Assembly (NCBI GenBank): GCA_029263125.1
Contig: JAJCYD010000044.1
Coordinates: 1-43,991 of the forward strand
DNA: 43,991 nucleotides
Direction: 5' to 3'
From: Solirubrobacteraceae bacterium
GTDB lineage: Bacteria; Actinomycetota; Thermoleophilia; Solirubrobacterales; Solirubrobacteraceae
Part shown: positions 26,805-33,758 of the stretch, in pieces
Position numbering within the stretch: the first letter of the stretch is position 1
How the letters are laid out: every line of letters starts with the position of its first letter
The notes under the pieces: generated by a model
The model's input: the letters and a program-made list of their open reading frames with translations, nothing else
The model's database searches: none
What the model was told of the DNA's origin: nothing
Program-made: the position numbers and the translations under genes

Positions 26805-27992
26805 TCAGCGCGCCGCAACGCGGCGACCGACGCGCTGGTGATAGAGGTGGGCGACCAGCGCCGCCGTCACGTCGGGGTCGAACTGGCTTCCCGCGCAGCG
26901 CGTCAGCTCCGCGAAGGCCTCGGCGTGGGACATGCGGGCGCGGTAGGGGCGGTCGCTGGTCATCGCGTGGTAGGCGTCGCAGGCGAGGATGATGCGACTG
27001 CCGATCGGGATCTTGTCACCGCCGATGCCGTCGGGGTAACCGCCGCCGTCGAAGCTCTCGTGCTCGTGGCGGACGATCGCCGCGACCGAGGCGAAGCCAC
27101 CGATGCTGCGCAGGATCCGTTCGCCGATCACGGGGTGCTCGGCCATCACCTCGCGCTCTTCCGGGGTCAGCGGGCCGGGCTTGTTGAGGATCGCGTCGGG
27201 GATCCCGACCTTGCCGATGTCGTGCAGCAGCGCCGCCGAGCGCACGACCTCGATCTGCGCGCGCGGCAGGCCGAGCGACGCCGCCACCTTGCCGGCCATC
27301 TCCACCACGGACTCCGAGTGCTCACCGGTGTAGCGGTCGCGCTCCAGCAGCGCGACGGCGAGCGCCTCGACGGCGTCTCGTCGCTGGATCTCCGCCACGA
27401 CGCCCGCCCCCGCCGGCTCCTGCGCGGACGCCGTGACGGTGCGCCCCCCACCGGCGCTCTGGGCGTCAGACAGCGCCCGCCCGGCGCGTTCGAGGAGGTC
27501 GACCGCATCGTCGGTGCGACCGAAGGGCGCGACGCCCGCCGACGCCGACACGTCGCGCACCGGCCCCGCTTTCAGCGCCTCGATGTCGGCGAGCAGGCGC
27601 TCCACGCACGCGGTGGCGGCCTGCTCTCCGGCGTCGCAGAGCAGCAGCGCGAACCTCGCGTCGCCGCTGCGCGCGAGGATGTCCTCCGCTCGCGTGCCGG
27701 CGCGCAGCGTCTGGATCACGGCGCGCAGCAGCGCGTCGCCGGAGGCAAAGCCGTGCTGGCGGTGCACGTCGGCGATGCGGTCGACCTCCAGCACCACGAG
27801 CGCGCCCGGGCGGTCGTGACGGCGCGAGCGCTGGACCTCCTCACCCAGATGCGCGCGGAAGGACTCGATCGACAGCACGCCGGTCAGCGGGTCGCGGCCG
27901 CGCCGCACGAGCTCCTGCTCAAGATCGGCGATCCGCCCGCGAGCGGCCTGCAGCTCGCGGCTCAGCTGCTCACGTTCGCTACGCGCTGACAC
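26805..27992 (-). CDS. HD-GYP phosphodiesterase with degenerate GGDEF domain
   Basis: The 395-residue product begins with a short coiled coil (SRELQAARGRIADLEQEL). A GGDEF-like domain follows (~34-180; DPLTGVLSIESF, FASGDALLRAV) whose signature is replaced by SGDARF (109-114), so it should not make c-di-GMP. The C-terminal HD-GYP domain (~205-390) is intact: HD at 257-258 in LLHDIGKVGIP, HE at 309-310 and GYP at 318-320 in DGGGYPDG. It should hydrolyse c-di-GMP, with the degenerate domain as a possible GTP sensor (known for other composite proteins; inference here). No membrane segment. The GTG start at 27992 is 76 bases after the DUF2149 gene on the same strand, so it may be its operon partner. 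Confidence 0.9.
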   Translation of the reverse strand: MSARSEREQLSRELQAARGRIADLEQELVRRGRDPLTGVLSIESFRAHLGEEVQRSRRHDRPGALVVLEVDRIADVHRQHGFASGDALLRAVIQTLRAGTRAEDILARSGDARFALLLCDAGEQAATACVERLLADIEALKAGPVRDVSASAGVAPFGRTDDAVDLLERAGRALSDAQSAGGGRTVTASAQEPAGAGVVAEIQRRDAVEALAVALLERDRYTGEHSESVVEMAGKVAASLGLPRAQIEVVRSAALLHDIGKVGIPDAILNKPGPLTPEEREVMAEHPVIGERILRSIGGFASVAAIVRHEHESFDGGGYPDGIGGDKIPIGSRIILACDAYHAMTSDRPYRARMSHAEAFAELTRCAGSQFDPDVTAALVAHLYHQRVGRRVAAR

Positions 27993-28068: not shown

Positions 28069-28410
28069 CTACGGCGTCTTGCCGGTGACGTACACCAGGC
28101 GGCCGTCGGCGAGCCGGTAGACCTCCCCCACCCGCTTGCCCGTGCCCGTCACCGACTCCTCGCTGAGGCGCACGGTCTTGATTGACTCGCCCTCCTTGAC
28201 GATCACCGTCTGCCCCTTGGAATCGGTACGCAGGACGGTGACGTCCTGCTCGGTCAGCAGCTCGGTGAGGTTGACCGACTGCAGCGCCGCCAGCAGGAAC
28301 GCCACAGCAAGCACGATCCCGAGGTCGAAGAGGTTGACCAGACCGTCCAGCGGATCGCCGCCGCGATCGCTGCGCGTGCGCGCGCGTGCGGTGACCTTCG
28401 ACGGCCTCAC
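28069..28410 (-). CDS. DUF2149-type membrane protein, partner of the ExbB-like channel
   Basis: The 113-residue product has a basic start (KVTARARTRSDRGGDPLDG), one membrane helix (LVNLFDLGIVLAVAFLLAAL) and a soluble outer part of about 65 residues with VTVLRTDSKGQTVIVKEGE. This matches the DUF2149 pattern of proteins that accompany MotA/TolQ/ExbB channels. By size and layout (short cytoplasmic start, one helix carrying an aspartate at its beginning, outer beta domain) it resembles ExbD/TolR. An ExbD-like role is inference. The GTG start overlaps the ExbB-like stop by four bases. Confidence 0.75.
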   Translation of the reverse strand: MRPSKVTARARTRSDRGGDPLDGLVNLFDLGIVLAVAFLLAALQSVNLTELLTEQDVTVLRTDSKGQTVIVKEGESIKTVRLSEESVTGTGKRVGEVYRLADGRLVYVTGKTP

Positions 28411-29042
28411 GGCGCGTCAGGCTCCAGCGCGGTCGCGACGTACTCCAGGTCGGAGAGATCCTGCGCGTACAGGCGGTCGCGCACGAGCGACACCGCGAAG
28501 GCGATCGCGCCGATCAGCAGGCCCATGACCGTGACGCTGAACGCGACGCGCAGGTTGTCAGACAGCAGCTGGACGTTGCCCTCGGCAAGGCCCTCCAGCG
28601 CCGGTGACAGCGGGATCAGGGTGCCCATCAGGCCGAGCGCCGGGCCGAAGCGCACCATCATGCGCGTGCGCTCGAGCCTGCGCAGCGACTGCAGGTCGAA
28701 GTCGGCGAGGATCTTCGCCATCCGGTCGCTGGCCTCGGCCTCGTCGCGCTGCTCGATGATCTGCGTCAGGGCGTCGGCCATCGATTCGCTCGTCGCCCGC
28801 GACAGCAGCGCCCGCGCCGCGGCCGGAGCGTCGCCCTGCTTGAGCGCGAACATCGCCGCCGCCGACGCCGACTCAAGGCCCGCCTGCCCCTCGCCGCCGC
28901 GGCGCCGGGCGAGCTCGACGAAGAACGTCCCGAGCTCATACAGCGTCACCAGCAGCGCGAGCAGCACCGCGAGCAGCACCGGTATGCGCATCGCATCGAC
29001 GATGGTGAAGAGAAACTCCTCGATGCCCCCGGCTGCGATCAT
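28407..29042 (-). CDS. MotA/TolQ/ExbB-like proton channel subunit
   Basis: The 211-residue product has three membrane helices: residues ~13-36, and a pair at ~135-155 (FGPALGLMGTLIPL) and ~165-190 (VAFSVTVMGLLIGAIAFAVSL). A long cytoplasmic loop lies between the first and second. The GPxLGLMGTLIPL segment is the family hallmark, and the ending DLSDLEYVATAL matches the archaeal-type members that accompany DUF2149. Such channels use the proton gradient to drive a partner. The ATG at 29042 overlaps the surface-protein stop by four bases. No TonB, TolA or flagellar gene is near, so the driven partner is most likely the adjacent PKD protein. Confidence 0.85.
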   Translation of the reverse strand: MIAAGGIEEFLFTIVDAMRIPVLLAVLLALLVTLYELGTFFVELARRRGGEGQAGLESASAAAMFALKQGDAPAAARALLSRATSESMADALTQIIEQRDEAEASDRMAKILADFDLQSLRRLERTRMMVRFGPALGLMGTLIPLSPALEGLAEGNVQLLSDNLRVAFSVTVMGLLIGAIAFAVSLVRDRLYAQDLSDLEYVATALEPDAP

Positions 29043-30301
29043 GCGATGCGCAGTGTGACGCGTCGGCGCTCTTGAAGCGCGCCCCATACGAAGACCGACA
29101 TCGCGAAGGCCGCCGCAATGCCGATCTGCGAGAGCTGGCTGACCGCTCCCGCCTTGCCTCGCGCGGGCTTGGGAGTGCCTCCGGCCTTGGCCTCGGGGAG
29201 GTTCCCGTCGACCGTCGCGCCGGAGCCGGAGAGCAGGATGCCGCGCACGACCGTCGTGCCTGCTCCCGAGCGCGGGTCGGTGGAGAAGCGCGCATCGGGC
29301 TCCGGTCGCTGCGGGCGCGGGCGCTGGGTCTTCGTGCTCGGCTTGGGCGCAACGGTGCCGCCACCCGAGCCGCTCCCAGTGCCGCCGGAACCGTCGCCGG
29401 TGCCCGTGCCGCCGCCGGTCCCGCCGTTGCCGGAGGAGTTCGGCGCGGTACCACCGCCCTGCGGTGTGCCCTGGACCTCGTCGGCCTTGCGCTCGCTACC
29501 GGTCACCGTGACGTCGACGGACTTCACACCGGCGCAGACGCCTGCGCACTGCGAGGAGCCTCCGCTGCCCTGCGCCTTGACGGTGGCCTGCAGGTCACCT
29601 GAGACCGAGTAGGTGTGGGTGACCGAGGCGCCGAACCCGGTGGTCCCGTCGCCGAAGTCCCAGGAGTAGCTGATCTGCGCCCCCGCAGGCGGACTGCTCA
29701 CGCTGGCCTTGAAGGTGACCGTCTGGCCGGTCTTGACCGTGCTCGGGCTCGCGCTCGCCCGCACCGACAGCAGGCTGCCTCCGTCGACGGTCATCTCGAT
29801 CGGTGTGCCGGGCGCGCTGGGGACGTTCTCCGAGGTCCCGCCGGAGCTTCGCGCCGGCCGGAAGAAGCGCGTCGTGGAGCCCTCGTCGGTGACGATCGCC
29901 GGGCCCTCCGGGAACCCGCCGCCGTTGATCTCCGCGCCCCTCAGGGTCAGCACGCTGCCGTCGTCGCCGACGACCTGCACGAAGTTCACCGAGCCGACGT
30001 CGAGGCCCGCCAGACGCAGCAGGCCCCCGATCGTGACGCCTCGCAGCGTGATCTTGGTGCTCGGTCCACCCACACGCTCGCGGTCGGTGTAGGAGGTCGG
30101 CCCGCTGTTGGACGCCGCCGCGATCTGGGCGCCCGAGACGCTGATCTCATCGCTGCCGGCGCCCTGCTTGAGCACGACGCCGGGGCCCGCCAGCGCGCTC
30201 GAGGCGCCCACGCCGAGCAGCGCGAGCATCCCCAGCAGCAGCGCCGTGCCGGCACGGCGCGCGCGCACGAGCAGCCGGACTGTCGATCGGGCGTGGACCA
30301 C
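29039..30301 (-). CDS. PKD-domain cell-surface protein with C-terminal membrane anchor
   Basis: The 420-residue product has a signal peptide (residues ~18-38, ALLLGMLALLGVGASSALA). A first domain (~40-172) holds LRGVTIGGLLRLAGLDVGSV and GFPEGPAIVTDEGSTTRFFRP, whose pattern weakly recalls sulfite-oxidase-fold molybdopterin domains without its cysteine. Then come a PKD domain (~175-268, SYSWDFGDGTTGF with THTYSVSG) and a CAGVCAG pair. A Gly/Ser-rich linker (~280-318) and a Pro/Arg stretch follow, and finally a membrane helix (~388-408) with a basic end. The protein thus sits outside the membrane on a long flexible stalk. The GTG at 30301 has a GGAGGAA ribosome site at the right distance. It is the first gene of the operon with ExbB-like and DUF2149 genes. 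Ligand unknown. Confidence 0.82.
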   Translation of the reverse strand: MVHARSTVRLLVRARRAGTALLLGMLALLGVGASSALAGPGVVLKQGAGSDEISVSGAQIAAASNSGPTSYTDRERVGGPSTKITLRGVTIGGLLRLAGLDVGSVNFVQVVGDDGSVLTLRGAEINGGGFPEGPAIVTDEGSTTRFFRPARSSGGTSENVPSAPGTPIEMTVDGGSLLSVRASASPSTVKTGQTVTFKASVSSPPAGAQISYSWDFGDGTTGFGASVTHTYSVSGDLQATVKAQGSGGSSQCAGVCAGVKSVDVTVTGSERKADEVQGTPQGGGTAPNSSGNGGTGGGTGTGDGSGGTGSGSGGGTVAPKPSTKTQRPRPQRPEPDARFSTDPRSGAGTTVVRGILLSGSGATVDGNLPEAKAGGTPKPARGKAGAVSQLSQIGIAAAFAMSVFVWGALQERRRVTLRIA

Positions 30302-30346
30302 GTGGTTCCTCCGGCAAGTCCTTGTGCGCTTGGGCGGACGCTGGCG

Positions 30347-30416
30347 CCGGCTGGCAAGGACGCAGCGAGGGAGTGGCCCTCCAGGGCCATGACCGAGCGA
30401 GGACGCCGCCAGCCGG
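30347..30416. promoter_or_regulatory. Symmetric stem-loop element upstream of the PKD operon
   Basis: CCGGCTGGC (30347-30355) pairs perfectly with GCCAGCCGG (30408-30416), and inside it TGGCCC (30374-30379) pairs with GGGCCA (30384-30389) around a four-base loop. The two stems are separated by internal strands of exactly 18 bases on each side, both containing GGACGC and AGCGAGG. It lies 46 bases before the PKD-protein start and 61 bases after the ABC permease stop. It could be a leader RNA, an operator or a terminator of the permease. It does not match the c-di-GMP, FMN or cobalamin riboswitch patterns I know. The strand of action is assumed to be minus. Confidence 0.5.
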
Positions 30417-30477
30417 TGATCAGCGATCGATCCAAGCGTGCGAGGACTTTCGGGAGGGACCACCAGCGCAAGCTACC

Positions 30478-33027
30478 TCACTCGTACGCCAGAGCACGCA
30501 ATACGTCCAGCCGGGCCGCGCGGCGGGCGGGCCACAGCGCCGCGAGCATCCCGGCGAGCGCCGCAAGGGTGACCAGCAGCGCCAGCGTTCCGACGGGGAA
30601 GGTCAGCCGGAAGCCCTCCTCTTCCAGCGGGCGGCTGATCGCCAGCGCGAACAGGATCCCGAGCACGAGCCCGAGCAGCGCGCCGATCAGCGAGGTGATG
30701 ACCGCCTCCAGGCGCACGATCCGCTTGACCTGGCGACGCGACATGCCGACCGCGCGCAGCAGTCCGAGCTCGCGCGTGCGCTCGAAGATCGACAGCGCGA
30801 GCGTGTTGACGATGCCGAACAGCGACACGATCACCGACAGCGCCAGCAGCGCGTAGATGAGATACAGCAGCTGGTTGATCTGGCCCGCCTGCTGCTCCTT
30901 GACCTGCTGCCGGTCGCGTGTGCGCGCGTCGGGGAAGCTCGCGGCCAGCGTTCTGTCGATCGCCGCTCGCGTCCGCGCGGGGTTGGCGCCCTGCGCGAAG
31001 CGCACGAACACGAAGGCGTCGTCGGTGACGTCGAAGTCCTCGCGCAGGCGGGCGTTGGGGATCACGAGGCCGCCACCGAGCAACCCGAAGTCCGAGCCCT
31101 CGTCGAGCAGGCCACGGATGACGTATGTCACGCGCTTGCCCGCGGGCGTCAGCATCGTGACGCGATCGCCGACGCGCGCGTCGTCGGAGAAGCCGGTGTC
31201 GGCGAGGATCCCGTCGCTGCCCAAGCGCTCCAGCGTTGCATCCGACCCCTGCTTCCAGCGCAGCGTGTAGACCCGCGCGAGCGTCTGCGGGTCGATGCCT
31301 CCTACCGAGGTGGAGCCCTTCTCGCCTTCGACCTTCGCCTCGCTGAAGCGCACCGAGCTCACCGAGCCGACGCCGTCCACGCGGCGCAGCGTGCTGAGCA
31401 TCGCCGGCGGGGTCTCGCCGAATCCGCTCTTGGCGCCGACGGTCAGGTCGCCGGCGAACGCGCGGTCCACGGCGCGGTCGATCGAGCCCTGCAGGCCGGC
31501 GGCGAAGATCGACACGAAGGCGACGAGCGCGACGCCGACCATCAACGCCGCGGCCGTGACCGCCGTGCGGGCGGGGTTGCGGGTGGCGTTCTCGCGCGCC
31601 AGCCGGCCGCTGATGCCCGCCAGGCGCTGCATCGGCGCGCCGACGAGGGCGGCGATCGGCCGCACGAGCTGCGGGCTGAGCAGCGCGACGCCGAGGAAGA
31701 TCGCCACCGATCCGGCCCCGAGCGTCGCGGCGGCGCTGCCGCCGGAGGCGCCGCCGAACAGGCCGTATGCGACGACGCCGGCGCCGATCAGGCACAGCAG
31801 CCCGGCGACGGCGAGCCGCGCGCGACCGGCGCGAGCGGGCGCGGTCAGCCCGTCGCGCAGCGCGGAGATCGGCGCGATCTTCGTCGCGCGCAGCGCGGGC
31901 ACGATGCTCGCCACGACGGTCACCAGGACGCCGACCAGCAGCGACACGGCGATCGTGCGCCCCGCGATGACCGACGACGTCTGCGGCAGATCGGCGCCGA
32001 TCGCCGCGAGCAGGGCGCGCAGGGCGGGAACGAGCGCGAAGCCCCCGAGCAGGCCCAGCAGCGATGCGATCAGCCCGACGATCGCCGCCTCCAGCACCAC
32101 CGAGCGCAGCACCTGGCGGCGTGAGGCGCCGAGCATCCGCAGCAGGGCGAGCTCGCGCGTGCGCTGGGCGACGGTGATCGAGAACGTGTTGTAGATCACG
32201 AACGCGCCGACGAACAGCGCGATCCCGCCGAAGACCAGCAGGGCGGTGCGAAAGAACCCGAACTGATCCTGCAGGTCGGCGGCCTGGGCGCTGGCATCCT
32301 CCTCGCCGGTGCGAACCGTCACCGCCTCGCCATTCAGCGCGGCTTGGACGCGCCCGCGCAGCAGCGGTGCCGTGAGGCCGTCGGCGGCCGAGACGGAGAT
32401 CCCGCCGACGCGACCGCGCTGGCCCGTCAGCGCCTGTGCGACCGCCAGCGTGGCGATCGCGACCGGGAAACCGGCGATCGAGGCCTGCTCGCCGAAGCGC
32501 GCGGCGCCGACGAGCGTGAAGCGCCGCGCGCCCTCGTCGCCGACGATCCGCACGCGGTCGCCCAGCTCGTAGCCCTGATTGCGGAAGGTGTCCTCGTCGA
32601 GGCCGATCTCTGCGTCGCTGCGCGGTGCGCGGCCGGTGGTGAAGCGAAACTGCTCGAACGGCTCGGGCTGCAGCGAGGAGACGAAGCTGTTGGCGGAGAC
32701 CGGATCGCCGTCGGGCTTGCGGATCGAGACCTCGCCGAAGATGGCGCCCGCGGCCGCCTTGACGCCCTGCACCGAGCGGACGCGCTCGACGAGTCCCTCG
32801 CCCAGCGGGGGCGGATCGGCGAAGAAGTCGTCGTCGACCTTGCGCGGCGTGACCGTGACGTCCGTGCCGCTGTTTGCCTGCTCGAAGACCTCGGTGAACG
32901 AGCGGTCGATCGTGTCGGTGAAGATGTACGTGCCGGCGATCATCGCCACGCCGAGCACGACCGCCAGGGCGGTCAGCGCGGTGCGCAGCGGCCGGGCGCT
33001 CAGGCCCCTCAGCGCGACGCGTCTCAC
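30478..33027 (-). CDS. FtsX/MacB-type ABC transporter permease
   Basis: The 849-residue product has an N-terminal membrane helix (RTALTALAVVLGVAMIAGTYI), a long outer MacB-periplasmic-core-like domain (~40-250) and then a first FtsX set of helices (TALLVFGGIALFVGAFVIYNTFS...). An internal linker pair of helices, a second outer domain and a second FtsX set near the end (LIYALLALSVIVSLFGIVNTLAL) follow. This is the full duplicated layout of ABC exporters of lipids, lipoproteins or peptides in Gram-positive bacteria. The GTG at 33027 overlaps the ATPase stop by four bases; the frame is open further upstream but has no conserved sequence there. Confidence 0.9.
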   Translation of the reverse strand: MRRVALRGLSARPLRTALTALAVVLGVAMIAGTYIFTDTIDRSFTEVFEQANSGTDVTVTPRKVDDDFFADPPPLGEGLVERVRSVQGVKAAAGAIFGEVSIRKPDGDPVSANSFVSSLQPEPFEQFRFTTGRAPRSDAEIGLDEDTFRNQGYELGDRVRIVGDEGARRFTLVGAARFGEQASIAGFPVAIATLAVAQALTGQRGRVGGISVSAADGLTAPLLRGRVQAALNGEAVTVRTGEEDASAQAADLQDQFGFFRTALLVFGGIALFVGAFVIYNTFSITVAQRTRELALLRMLGASRRQVLRSVVLEAAIVGLIASLLGLLGGFALVPALRALLAAIGADLPQTSSVIAGRTIAVSLLVGVLVTVVASIVPALRATKIAPISALRDGLTAPARAGRARLAVAGLLCLIGAGVVAYGLFGGASGGSAAATLGAGSVAIFLGVALLSPQLVRPIAALVGAPMQRLAGISGRLARENATRNPARTAVTAAALMVGVALVAFVSIFAAGLQGSIDRAVDRAFAGDLTVGAKSGFGETPPAMLSTLRRVDGVGSVSSVRFSEAKVEGEKGSTSVGGIDPQTLARVYTLRWKQGSDATLERLGSDGILADTGFSDDARVGDRVTMLTPAGKRVTYVIRGLLDEGSDFGLLGGGLVIPNARLREDFDVTDDAFVFVRFAQGANPARTRAAIDRTLAASFPDARTRDRQQVKEQQAGQINQLLYLIYALLALSVIVSLFGIVNTLALSIFERTRELGLLRAVGMSRRQVKRIVRLEAVITSLIGALLGLVLGILFALAISRPLEEEGFRLTFPVGTLALLVTLAALAGMLAALWPARRAARLDVLRALAYE

Positions 33028-33758
33028 GATCCGACGGCCTTCATGACGTCGAAGATCTCGTCGGCCGAGCCGGCGGCGCCATCGTGAGCGACGCGGCCGT
33101 CGGCCAGCACGATCAGGCGGTCGGCGTACGCCGCGGCGCTCGCGTCGTGGGTGACCATCACGACGGTCTGCTCGAAGTCGTCGACCGAGCGGCGCAGCAG
33201 GCCGAGCACGTCCGTCGACGCCGCCGAGTCGAGGTTGCCGGTCGGCTCGTCGGCGAAGACGACGGCGGGCCTTGAGACCAGCGCCCGCGCGATGGCGACG
33301 CGCTGCTGCTGGCCGCCCGACAGCTCCGCGGGGCGGTGCGTGCGGCGATCGGCGAGACCGGTCGTCTGGATCAGCGACTCGAGCCATGCGGCGTCGGGCT
33401 TGCGGCCCGCGATCGTCAGCGGCAGCACGACGTTCTCCTCGGCTGTCAGCACCCCAAGCAGGTTGAAGGCCTGAAAGACGAACCCGACGCGGTCGCGGCG
33501 CAGCTTCGTCAGGCGCTTGTCGTCGAGGCCGGAGATCTCGACGCCGTCCAGCGACACCGTGCCGCTCGACGGCTGGTCCAGCCCCGCCATCAGGTGCATC
33601 AGCGTCGACTTGCCCGAGCCCGACGCCCCCATGATCGCGGTGAATCCGCCTCGGGCTACGGCGATGCTCACGCCGGCGAGGGCGTCGACTGCGGCTGGTC
33701 CCTCGCCATAGCGGCGATGCAGGTCGGTGGTCGAGACGATCGTGGCGTCGGCGGTCAT
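33024..33758 (-). CDS. ABC transporter ATP-binding protein, MacB/LolD type
   Basis: The 244-residue product is a single complete nucleotide-binding domain: Walker A GASGSGKST, Q-loop VFQAFNLL, signature LSGGQQQRVAIARAL, Walker B VVFADEPTGNLD and the switch histidine in VMVTHD. The GNLDS sequence after Walker B is typical of the LolD/MacB group that partners FtsX-type permeases. The permease gene overlaps it by four bases. The start codon is inside a 9-bp inverted repeat (33757-33796), and no ribosome site is apparent. Confidence 0.95.
   Translation of the reverse strand: MTADATIVSTTDLHRRYGEGPAAVDALAGVSIAVARGGFTAIMGASGSGKSTLMHLMAGLDQPSSGTVSLDGVEISGLDDKRLTKLRRDRVGFVFQAFNLLGVLTAEENVVLPLTIAGRKPDAAWLESLIQTTGLADRRTHRPAELSGGQQQRVAIARALVSRPAVVFADEPTGNLDSAASTDVLGLLRRSVDDFEQTVVMVTHDASAAAYADRLIVLADGRVAHDGAAGSADEIFDVMKAVGS

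Follow-up and report, generated by a model that had tools for sequence, protein, structure and literature searches.

What could an ExbB-like proton channel drive in a bacterium with a single membrane? Ton and Tol motors are described as sending force to the outer membrane, and we examined this question in a 43,991-nucleotide stretch of DNA (hereafter, the window) from a Solirubrobacteraceae bacterium (contig JAJCYD010000044.1). On the minus strand of the window, at 28069-30301, a trio of genes runs from a surface protein with a modelled sulfite oxidase (SUOX)-like domain and a PKD domain (the SUOX-PKD protein), through a MotA/TolQ/ExbB-type channel subunit, to a DUF2149 protein. We suggest that this trio is probably a proton-driven motor with its own surface transducer-receptor, the ligand of which is probably a scarce oxyanion or cofactor. 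The open reading frames and the Pfam matches agree with the coordinates and gene identities given in an earlier note, which had been made from the letters of the window. Neighbouring genes overlap by 4 bp (ATGA between the surface and channel genes, GTGA between the channel and DUF2149 genes). The surface gene (29039-30301, 420 aa) has a GTG start at 30301, which is uncertain, the frame being open to 30463, and its product shows a PKD match (E 1e-16), a Gly/Ser stalk and a C-terminal anchor helix. The HmuU-like channel (28407-29042, 211 aa) carries the signature GPALGLMGTLIPL and scores 37.6 bits with MotA_ExbB (PF01618; curated cut-off 22.9), and the HmuV-like DUF2149 protein (28069-28410, 113 aa) scores 84.5 bits with PF09919 (curated cut-off 27.1). 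In the host genome, a 3.75-Mb draft that is 95% complete and in which absences are strong, not final, a profile search finds the channel as the sole MotA_ExbB protein, and neither ExbD/TolR (PF02472) nor Omp85 has any match. This result supports the single-membrane context proposed earlier, with no Ton/Tol pair and no flagellar stator.

To see how firmly the genes are linked, we turned to related genomes. DUF2149 is present in 46 of the 299 genomes of the class (Thermoleophilia) by profile search, and an ExbB-like gene adjoins it in all 40 class loci inspected closely (that of the window plus 39 more). The trio is therefore far beyond chance: it is a real, conserved, proton-channel-linked surface machine. 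Eighty loci were collected from named genomes using the channel alignment as query; their sources include Actinomycetota (Conexibacter, Patulibacter, Nocardioides, Frondihabitans, Aeromicrobium), methanogens and anaerobic methanotrophic (ANME) archaea, Bacteroidota, Bacillota, Planctomycetota and Omnitrophota, and DUF2149 adjoins the channel in 76 of them, which excludes a lack of co-occurrence. In sister genomes of the window's genus, the SUOX-PKD trio is kept between a ribulose-phosphate epimerase (RPE) gene and a flippase-like gene, and in a tree of the channel the window clusters with those trios of its genus that stand alone (support 88). The channel and DUF2149 genes form the pair known as HmuU-HmuV in the heme operon of Bacteroidota, as in published Hmu operons HmuU is ExbB-like and HmuV is a DUF2149 protein (PMC10434189, PMC13227078, PMC12583661). 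In the literature searched, five papers name DUF2149 and none was found to give a mechanism, and sequence searches for solved structural relatives returned none that was convincing for DUF2149 and weak MotA matches only for the channel. We also noticed ExbB-DUF2149 pairs with no adjacent anchored partner (loci L050, L062, L069 and L076-L083); several of these loci bear genes resembling FhuF and MetH, and the genomes of three (L050, L062 and L069) have HtaA at another site.

The surface protein had been described as a PKD protein, and this domain is confirmed (29495-29779, minus strand; model residues 137-231; VIA-align Z 12.4), while a folded domain ahead of it had been overlooked. In the AlphaFold model (mean predicted local distance difference test (pLDDT) score 88.9), the first 137 residues past the signal peptide (29777-30187, minus strand; model residues 1-137) form a separate domain with a sulfite-oxidase/PruR-like fold, which aligns in VIA-align with PruR (7kom/7kp2) at Z 11.2 over 117-118 residues and with sulfite dehydrogenase/oxidase structures at Z 9-10 (10.0 for the sulfite dehydrogenase 2blf). 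Because the matches of a PDB sequence search with this domain fall on the PKD portion, the fold assignment comes from the structure model. The sequence of the domain contains no Cys and no Trp, and it thus lacks both the Mo ligand of the SUOX enzymes and the Trp that is tied to pterin binding in PruR (PMC13259868). The PKD domain looks like a spacer behind the SUOX-fold domain, so that its earlier casting as the working part is not upheld. A second SUOX-PKD copy was not found in the host genome.

The C terminus of the surface protein bears on what the channel drives. The folded domains are followed by a Gly/Pro/Lys-rich stalk, a VRGILL juxtamembrane motif (29231-29248, 39 residues ahead of the helix), which we propose as a D-box-like docking element, a single transmembrane helix located by hydropathy (SQIGIAAAFAMSVFVWGAL, 29075-29131) and a basic tail, QERRRVTLRIA (29042-29074), all on the minus strand. 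The upstream partners of the pair fall into three classes: SUOX-PKD proteins like that of the window, toroid proteins resembling squalene-hopene cyclases, and CobN/HmuS-type proteins, found in archaea, Bacteroidota and others. By profile, the toroid class is squalene-hopene cyclase-like with no intrinsic-factor match, so that corrinoid binding by this class is only a guess. Partners with unrelated ectodomains have a common C-terminal module, consisting of a stalk, a hydrophobic VxGxLL-type motif 17-49 residues ahead of a single helix, and a basic tail; because the ectodomains are unrelated, the shared C terminus points to a shared motor. The hexamer in a first, stricter pattern occurs in 33 of 45 partners, including 30 of 31 SUOX-PKD proteins (shuffled mean 0.6, maximum 4). 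A wider pattern, set post hoc after the CobN C-termini had been inspected, occurs in 54 of 65 partners in total with ~4 predicted by shuffling (SUOX-PKD 30/31, toroid 13/15 and CobN/HmuS 11/18, with 2.2, 0.7 and 1.4 expected, respectively), and as the sequences are related and the counts not independent, these numbers are strong but not to be taken as a probability. In a control set of 16 other C-anchored proteins, five have the motif; four of these (L071, L144, L149, L150) adjoin an ExbB gene and are partners themselves by gene order, and without them the count is 1 of 12. The motif is present in none of the 13 HtaA-profile matches in the same loci, which rules out HtaA as the driven partner. 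Variants were also seen among loci L110-L152: archaeal membrane-anchored CobN proteins have VxGxVM ahead of the C-terminal helix, and the C-termini of CobN/HmuS-type proteins of Bacteroidota and Omnitrophota have xGMVLEKE-like forms. Judged from this common docking module, it is very probably the surface protein that moves, in line with the earlier note. That note had seen no TonB-like energy helix besides the C-terminal anchor, a statement that we can sharpen, since energy appears to be transduced by the anchor together with the VRGILL motif.

How might the three proteins work together? In the mechanism that we propose, the ExbB-like protein would form a channel ring, with DUF2149 inside it in the role of the ExbD core helix; Asp29 would be the likely relay for protons. 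The C-terminal helix of the SUOX-PKD protein would sit against the ring, and its VRGILL strand would bind the outer portion of DUF2149 in the way that the TonB D-box docks on ExbD. Proton flow could then pull or release the long stalk, and this movement may alter how the SUOX-fold domain, at the cell surface, captures its ligand or hands it over. This ligand would probably be a scarce oxyanion or cofactor; relatives are linked to tungstate/molybdate-type, heme-type or energy-coupling factor (ECF)-like importers. Of this picture, the data show the gene linkage, the modelled folds, the common C-terminal module and the importers beside relatives, while the complex, its proton drive and its ligand are inferred. 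The DUF2149 protein has an N-in helix (residues 20-45) that contains Asp29, followed by a short tail, G.G...G.VYRLADGR.V.V, so that the ExbD/TolR-like shape ascribed to it extends to the helix and its Asp but to no periplasmic fold visible in the model. The DUF2149 protein of the window retains Asp29, as do 37 of 40 homologues, including all members of the SUOX-PKD class that were read.

Several results weigh against this proposal. The DUF2149 model is of low confidence (pLDDT 69.5) and consists of helix 20-45 and short strands only, with no ExbD-like periplasmic fold. The loss of the helix aspartate, which had been set as a sign against the machine, is seen as Tyr or Val in 3 of the 40 homologues (L048, L065, L068), all with toroid-class partners. 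The wider motif pattern is post hoc, as described above. Finally, neither TupA nor HtaA was found in the host genome, and a single weak FecCD match there pins down no partner importer; the trio stands alone, and we therefore name no ligand.

The importers beside its relatives nevertheless suggest narrower readings. Several SUOX-PKD operons (L105, L096, L095, L099, L093, L039, L041, L038) carry TupA/TupB-like genes, called from specific NCBIfam matches below the cut-off, and in relatives such as Conexibacter sp. CPCC 206217 (L105) and Frondihabitans sp. PhB188 (L096) the order is TupA, SUOX-PKD, ExbB, DUF2149, TupB, ATPase. An actinobacterial locus with a different surface protein (L118, 5140-16575) combines ExbB-DUF2149 with TupAB-like, Mop, MobA/FdhD, MoeA and further molybdenum cofactor (Moco)-like genes; known SUOX/PruR-fold members bind Moco or pterin (PMC13259868); and on a different contig of the host genome, Moco-like genes are accompanied by a ModB/ModC-like permease and ATPase (L163). 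The machine could thus be dedicated to tungstate/molybdate (or pterin) acquisition, a narrower form of our proposal in which a ligand bound by the SUOX-fold domain would be freed by the motor for uptake through an ATP-binding cassette (ABC) importer, TupABC in relatives and perhaps a Mod-type one here. We hold this to be possible but doubtful, because the host lacks TupA, neither the Mo-ligating Cys nor the PruR Trp is present in the SUOX domain, the class-wide co-occurrence of TupA and DUF2149 is modest (10 observed vs 4.5 expected, kinship ignored), and relatives of the same trio adjoin HtaA and FecCD. In the literature searched, the two papers in which tungstate, TupA and ExbB occur together deal, judged by title, with other subjects than such operons. 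Those HtaA and FecCD neighbours bring up heme (or corrinoid) uptake by a monoderm counterpart of Hmu: the pair is identical in kind to HmuU/HmuV, it is combined with HtaA, FecCD and Peripla_BP_2 genes in six loci (L040, L051, L053, L080, L086, L070), and HtaA and DUF2149 occur together in 19 genomes of the class vs 6.9 expected, kinship ignored. For the window we consider this unlikely, as the host has no HtaA and no clear FecCD importer and its CobN sits on another contig within a cobalamin-biosynthesis cluster. The host FecCD match reads like a ZnuB-type metal permease (L164) and was rejected as a heme importer, and no HmuS/CobN, TonB-dependent receptor or HmuY gene lies beside the trio. Some toroid-type loci have double-ATPase ECF-like genes, along with a weak match to an ECF S-component. 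Locus L070 (1030-9848) is unusually rich, with four HtaA-like genes, a fused PNPOx-like/DUF2470/Peripla_BP_2 protein and FecCD beside ExbB-DUF2149. The cofactor uptake raised in the earlier note fits the importers of the relatives.

Two readings without uptake fare worse. Directly downstream of the trio, 77 bp away on the same strand, a gene at 26805-27992 encodes a protein whose GGDEF motif is degenerate (SGDAR) and whose HD-GYP domain looks intact, and together with the PruR-like fold of the N-terminal domain it would suit a sensor that reads extracellular pterin and signals through this neighbour. We find this very improbable, since sister genomes do not have the HD-GYP gene next to their trio, which rules it out as a part, its protein shows no membrane or periplasmic part on reading, the PruR pterin-binding Trp is missing, and a proton channel would be needless for a signal alone. 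A Tol-like motor working on the cell wall, in envelope upkeep or adhesion, would match the long stalk, the PKD domain and the general motor family; it also seems very improbable, because Pfam finds no peptidoglycan-binding domain and the relatives are repeatedly linked to importers, and the adhesion role suggested earlier is not supported. Upstream of the trio, the window encodes a MacB/FtsX-type permease and an ABC ATPase (30478-33758), which were ruled out as parts because they are not beside the trio in sister genomes. The spacer in between (30302-30477, 176 nt; fold z -4.55) is an interspersed, strongly palindromic element with an 81% copy elsewhere in the genome (G000:C11:18288-18452) and further fragments, and it probably does not belong to the machine. 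A comparison with Rfam gave no match of note, so that a riboswitch was dismissed.

We return to a probable proton-driven motor with its own surface transducer-receptor. The recurrence of one short motif on unrelated receptors in bacteria and archaea suggests that cells without an outer membrane may also use TonB-style machines. If so, a motor driving surface receptors in methanogens and in Actinomycetota without Omp85 would imply that an outer membrane is no prerequisite for proton-driven receptors. More tentatively, and with somewhat less confidence than doubt, we envisage a general class of inverted TonB-like transducers in archaea and cells without an outer membrane, in which any ectodomain (SUOX, toroid or CobN/HmuS) is placed on one ExbB-DUF2149 motor through a C-terminal D-box-like motif and helix. 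If such a class exists, HmuS would be the protein that HmuU-HmuV drives directly in Bacteroidota of the gut.

How does the trio compare with known systems? It shares with Hmu of Bacteroidota (HmuYRSTUV) an ExbB-like channel followed by DUF2149, and a C-terminal helix is likewise seen in the CobN/HmuS-type proteins from these operons, with a similar motif in archaea; it differs in lacking a TonB-dependent receptor, HmuY and HmuS, its partner being SUOX-PKD in a genome without Omp85. With PruR and other SUOX-fold proteins, it shares the fold of the N-terminal domain, and the Mo-ligating Cys is missing as in PruR, whereas the domain also lacks the pterin-binding Trp and is fused to PKD, stalk and anchor. 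The TupABC tungstate importer is encoded together with relatives of the trio, but TupA is absent from the host genome. The disordered linker of TonB and HasB holds, near the membrane helix, a short motif that attaches as a strand to the ExbD dimer, and in TolA there is an R-box (PMC10771500, PMC12215075). The VRGILL-type motif appears to match the TonB D-box in position and kind, with inverted topology. Like TonB-ExbB-ExbD and TolA-TolQ-TolR, the trio has a channel of this family, an N-in core helix with an Asp, and a partner with one membrane helix, a disordered stalk and, close to the helix, a short hydrophobic motif; unlike them, it has DUF2149 in place of ExbD, no outer membrane, no Pfam match to a TonB domain in the surface protein, and a partner turned around, with the helix at the C terminus and the ectodomain at the N terminus. 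What is new here is that the trio represents a variant of the ExbB/TonB kind in which the transducer is inverted.
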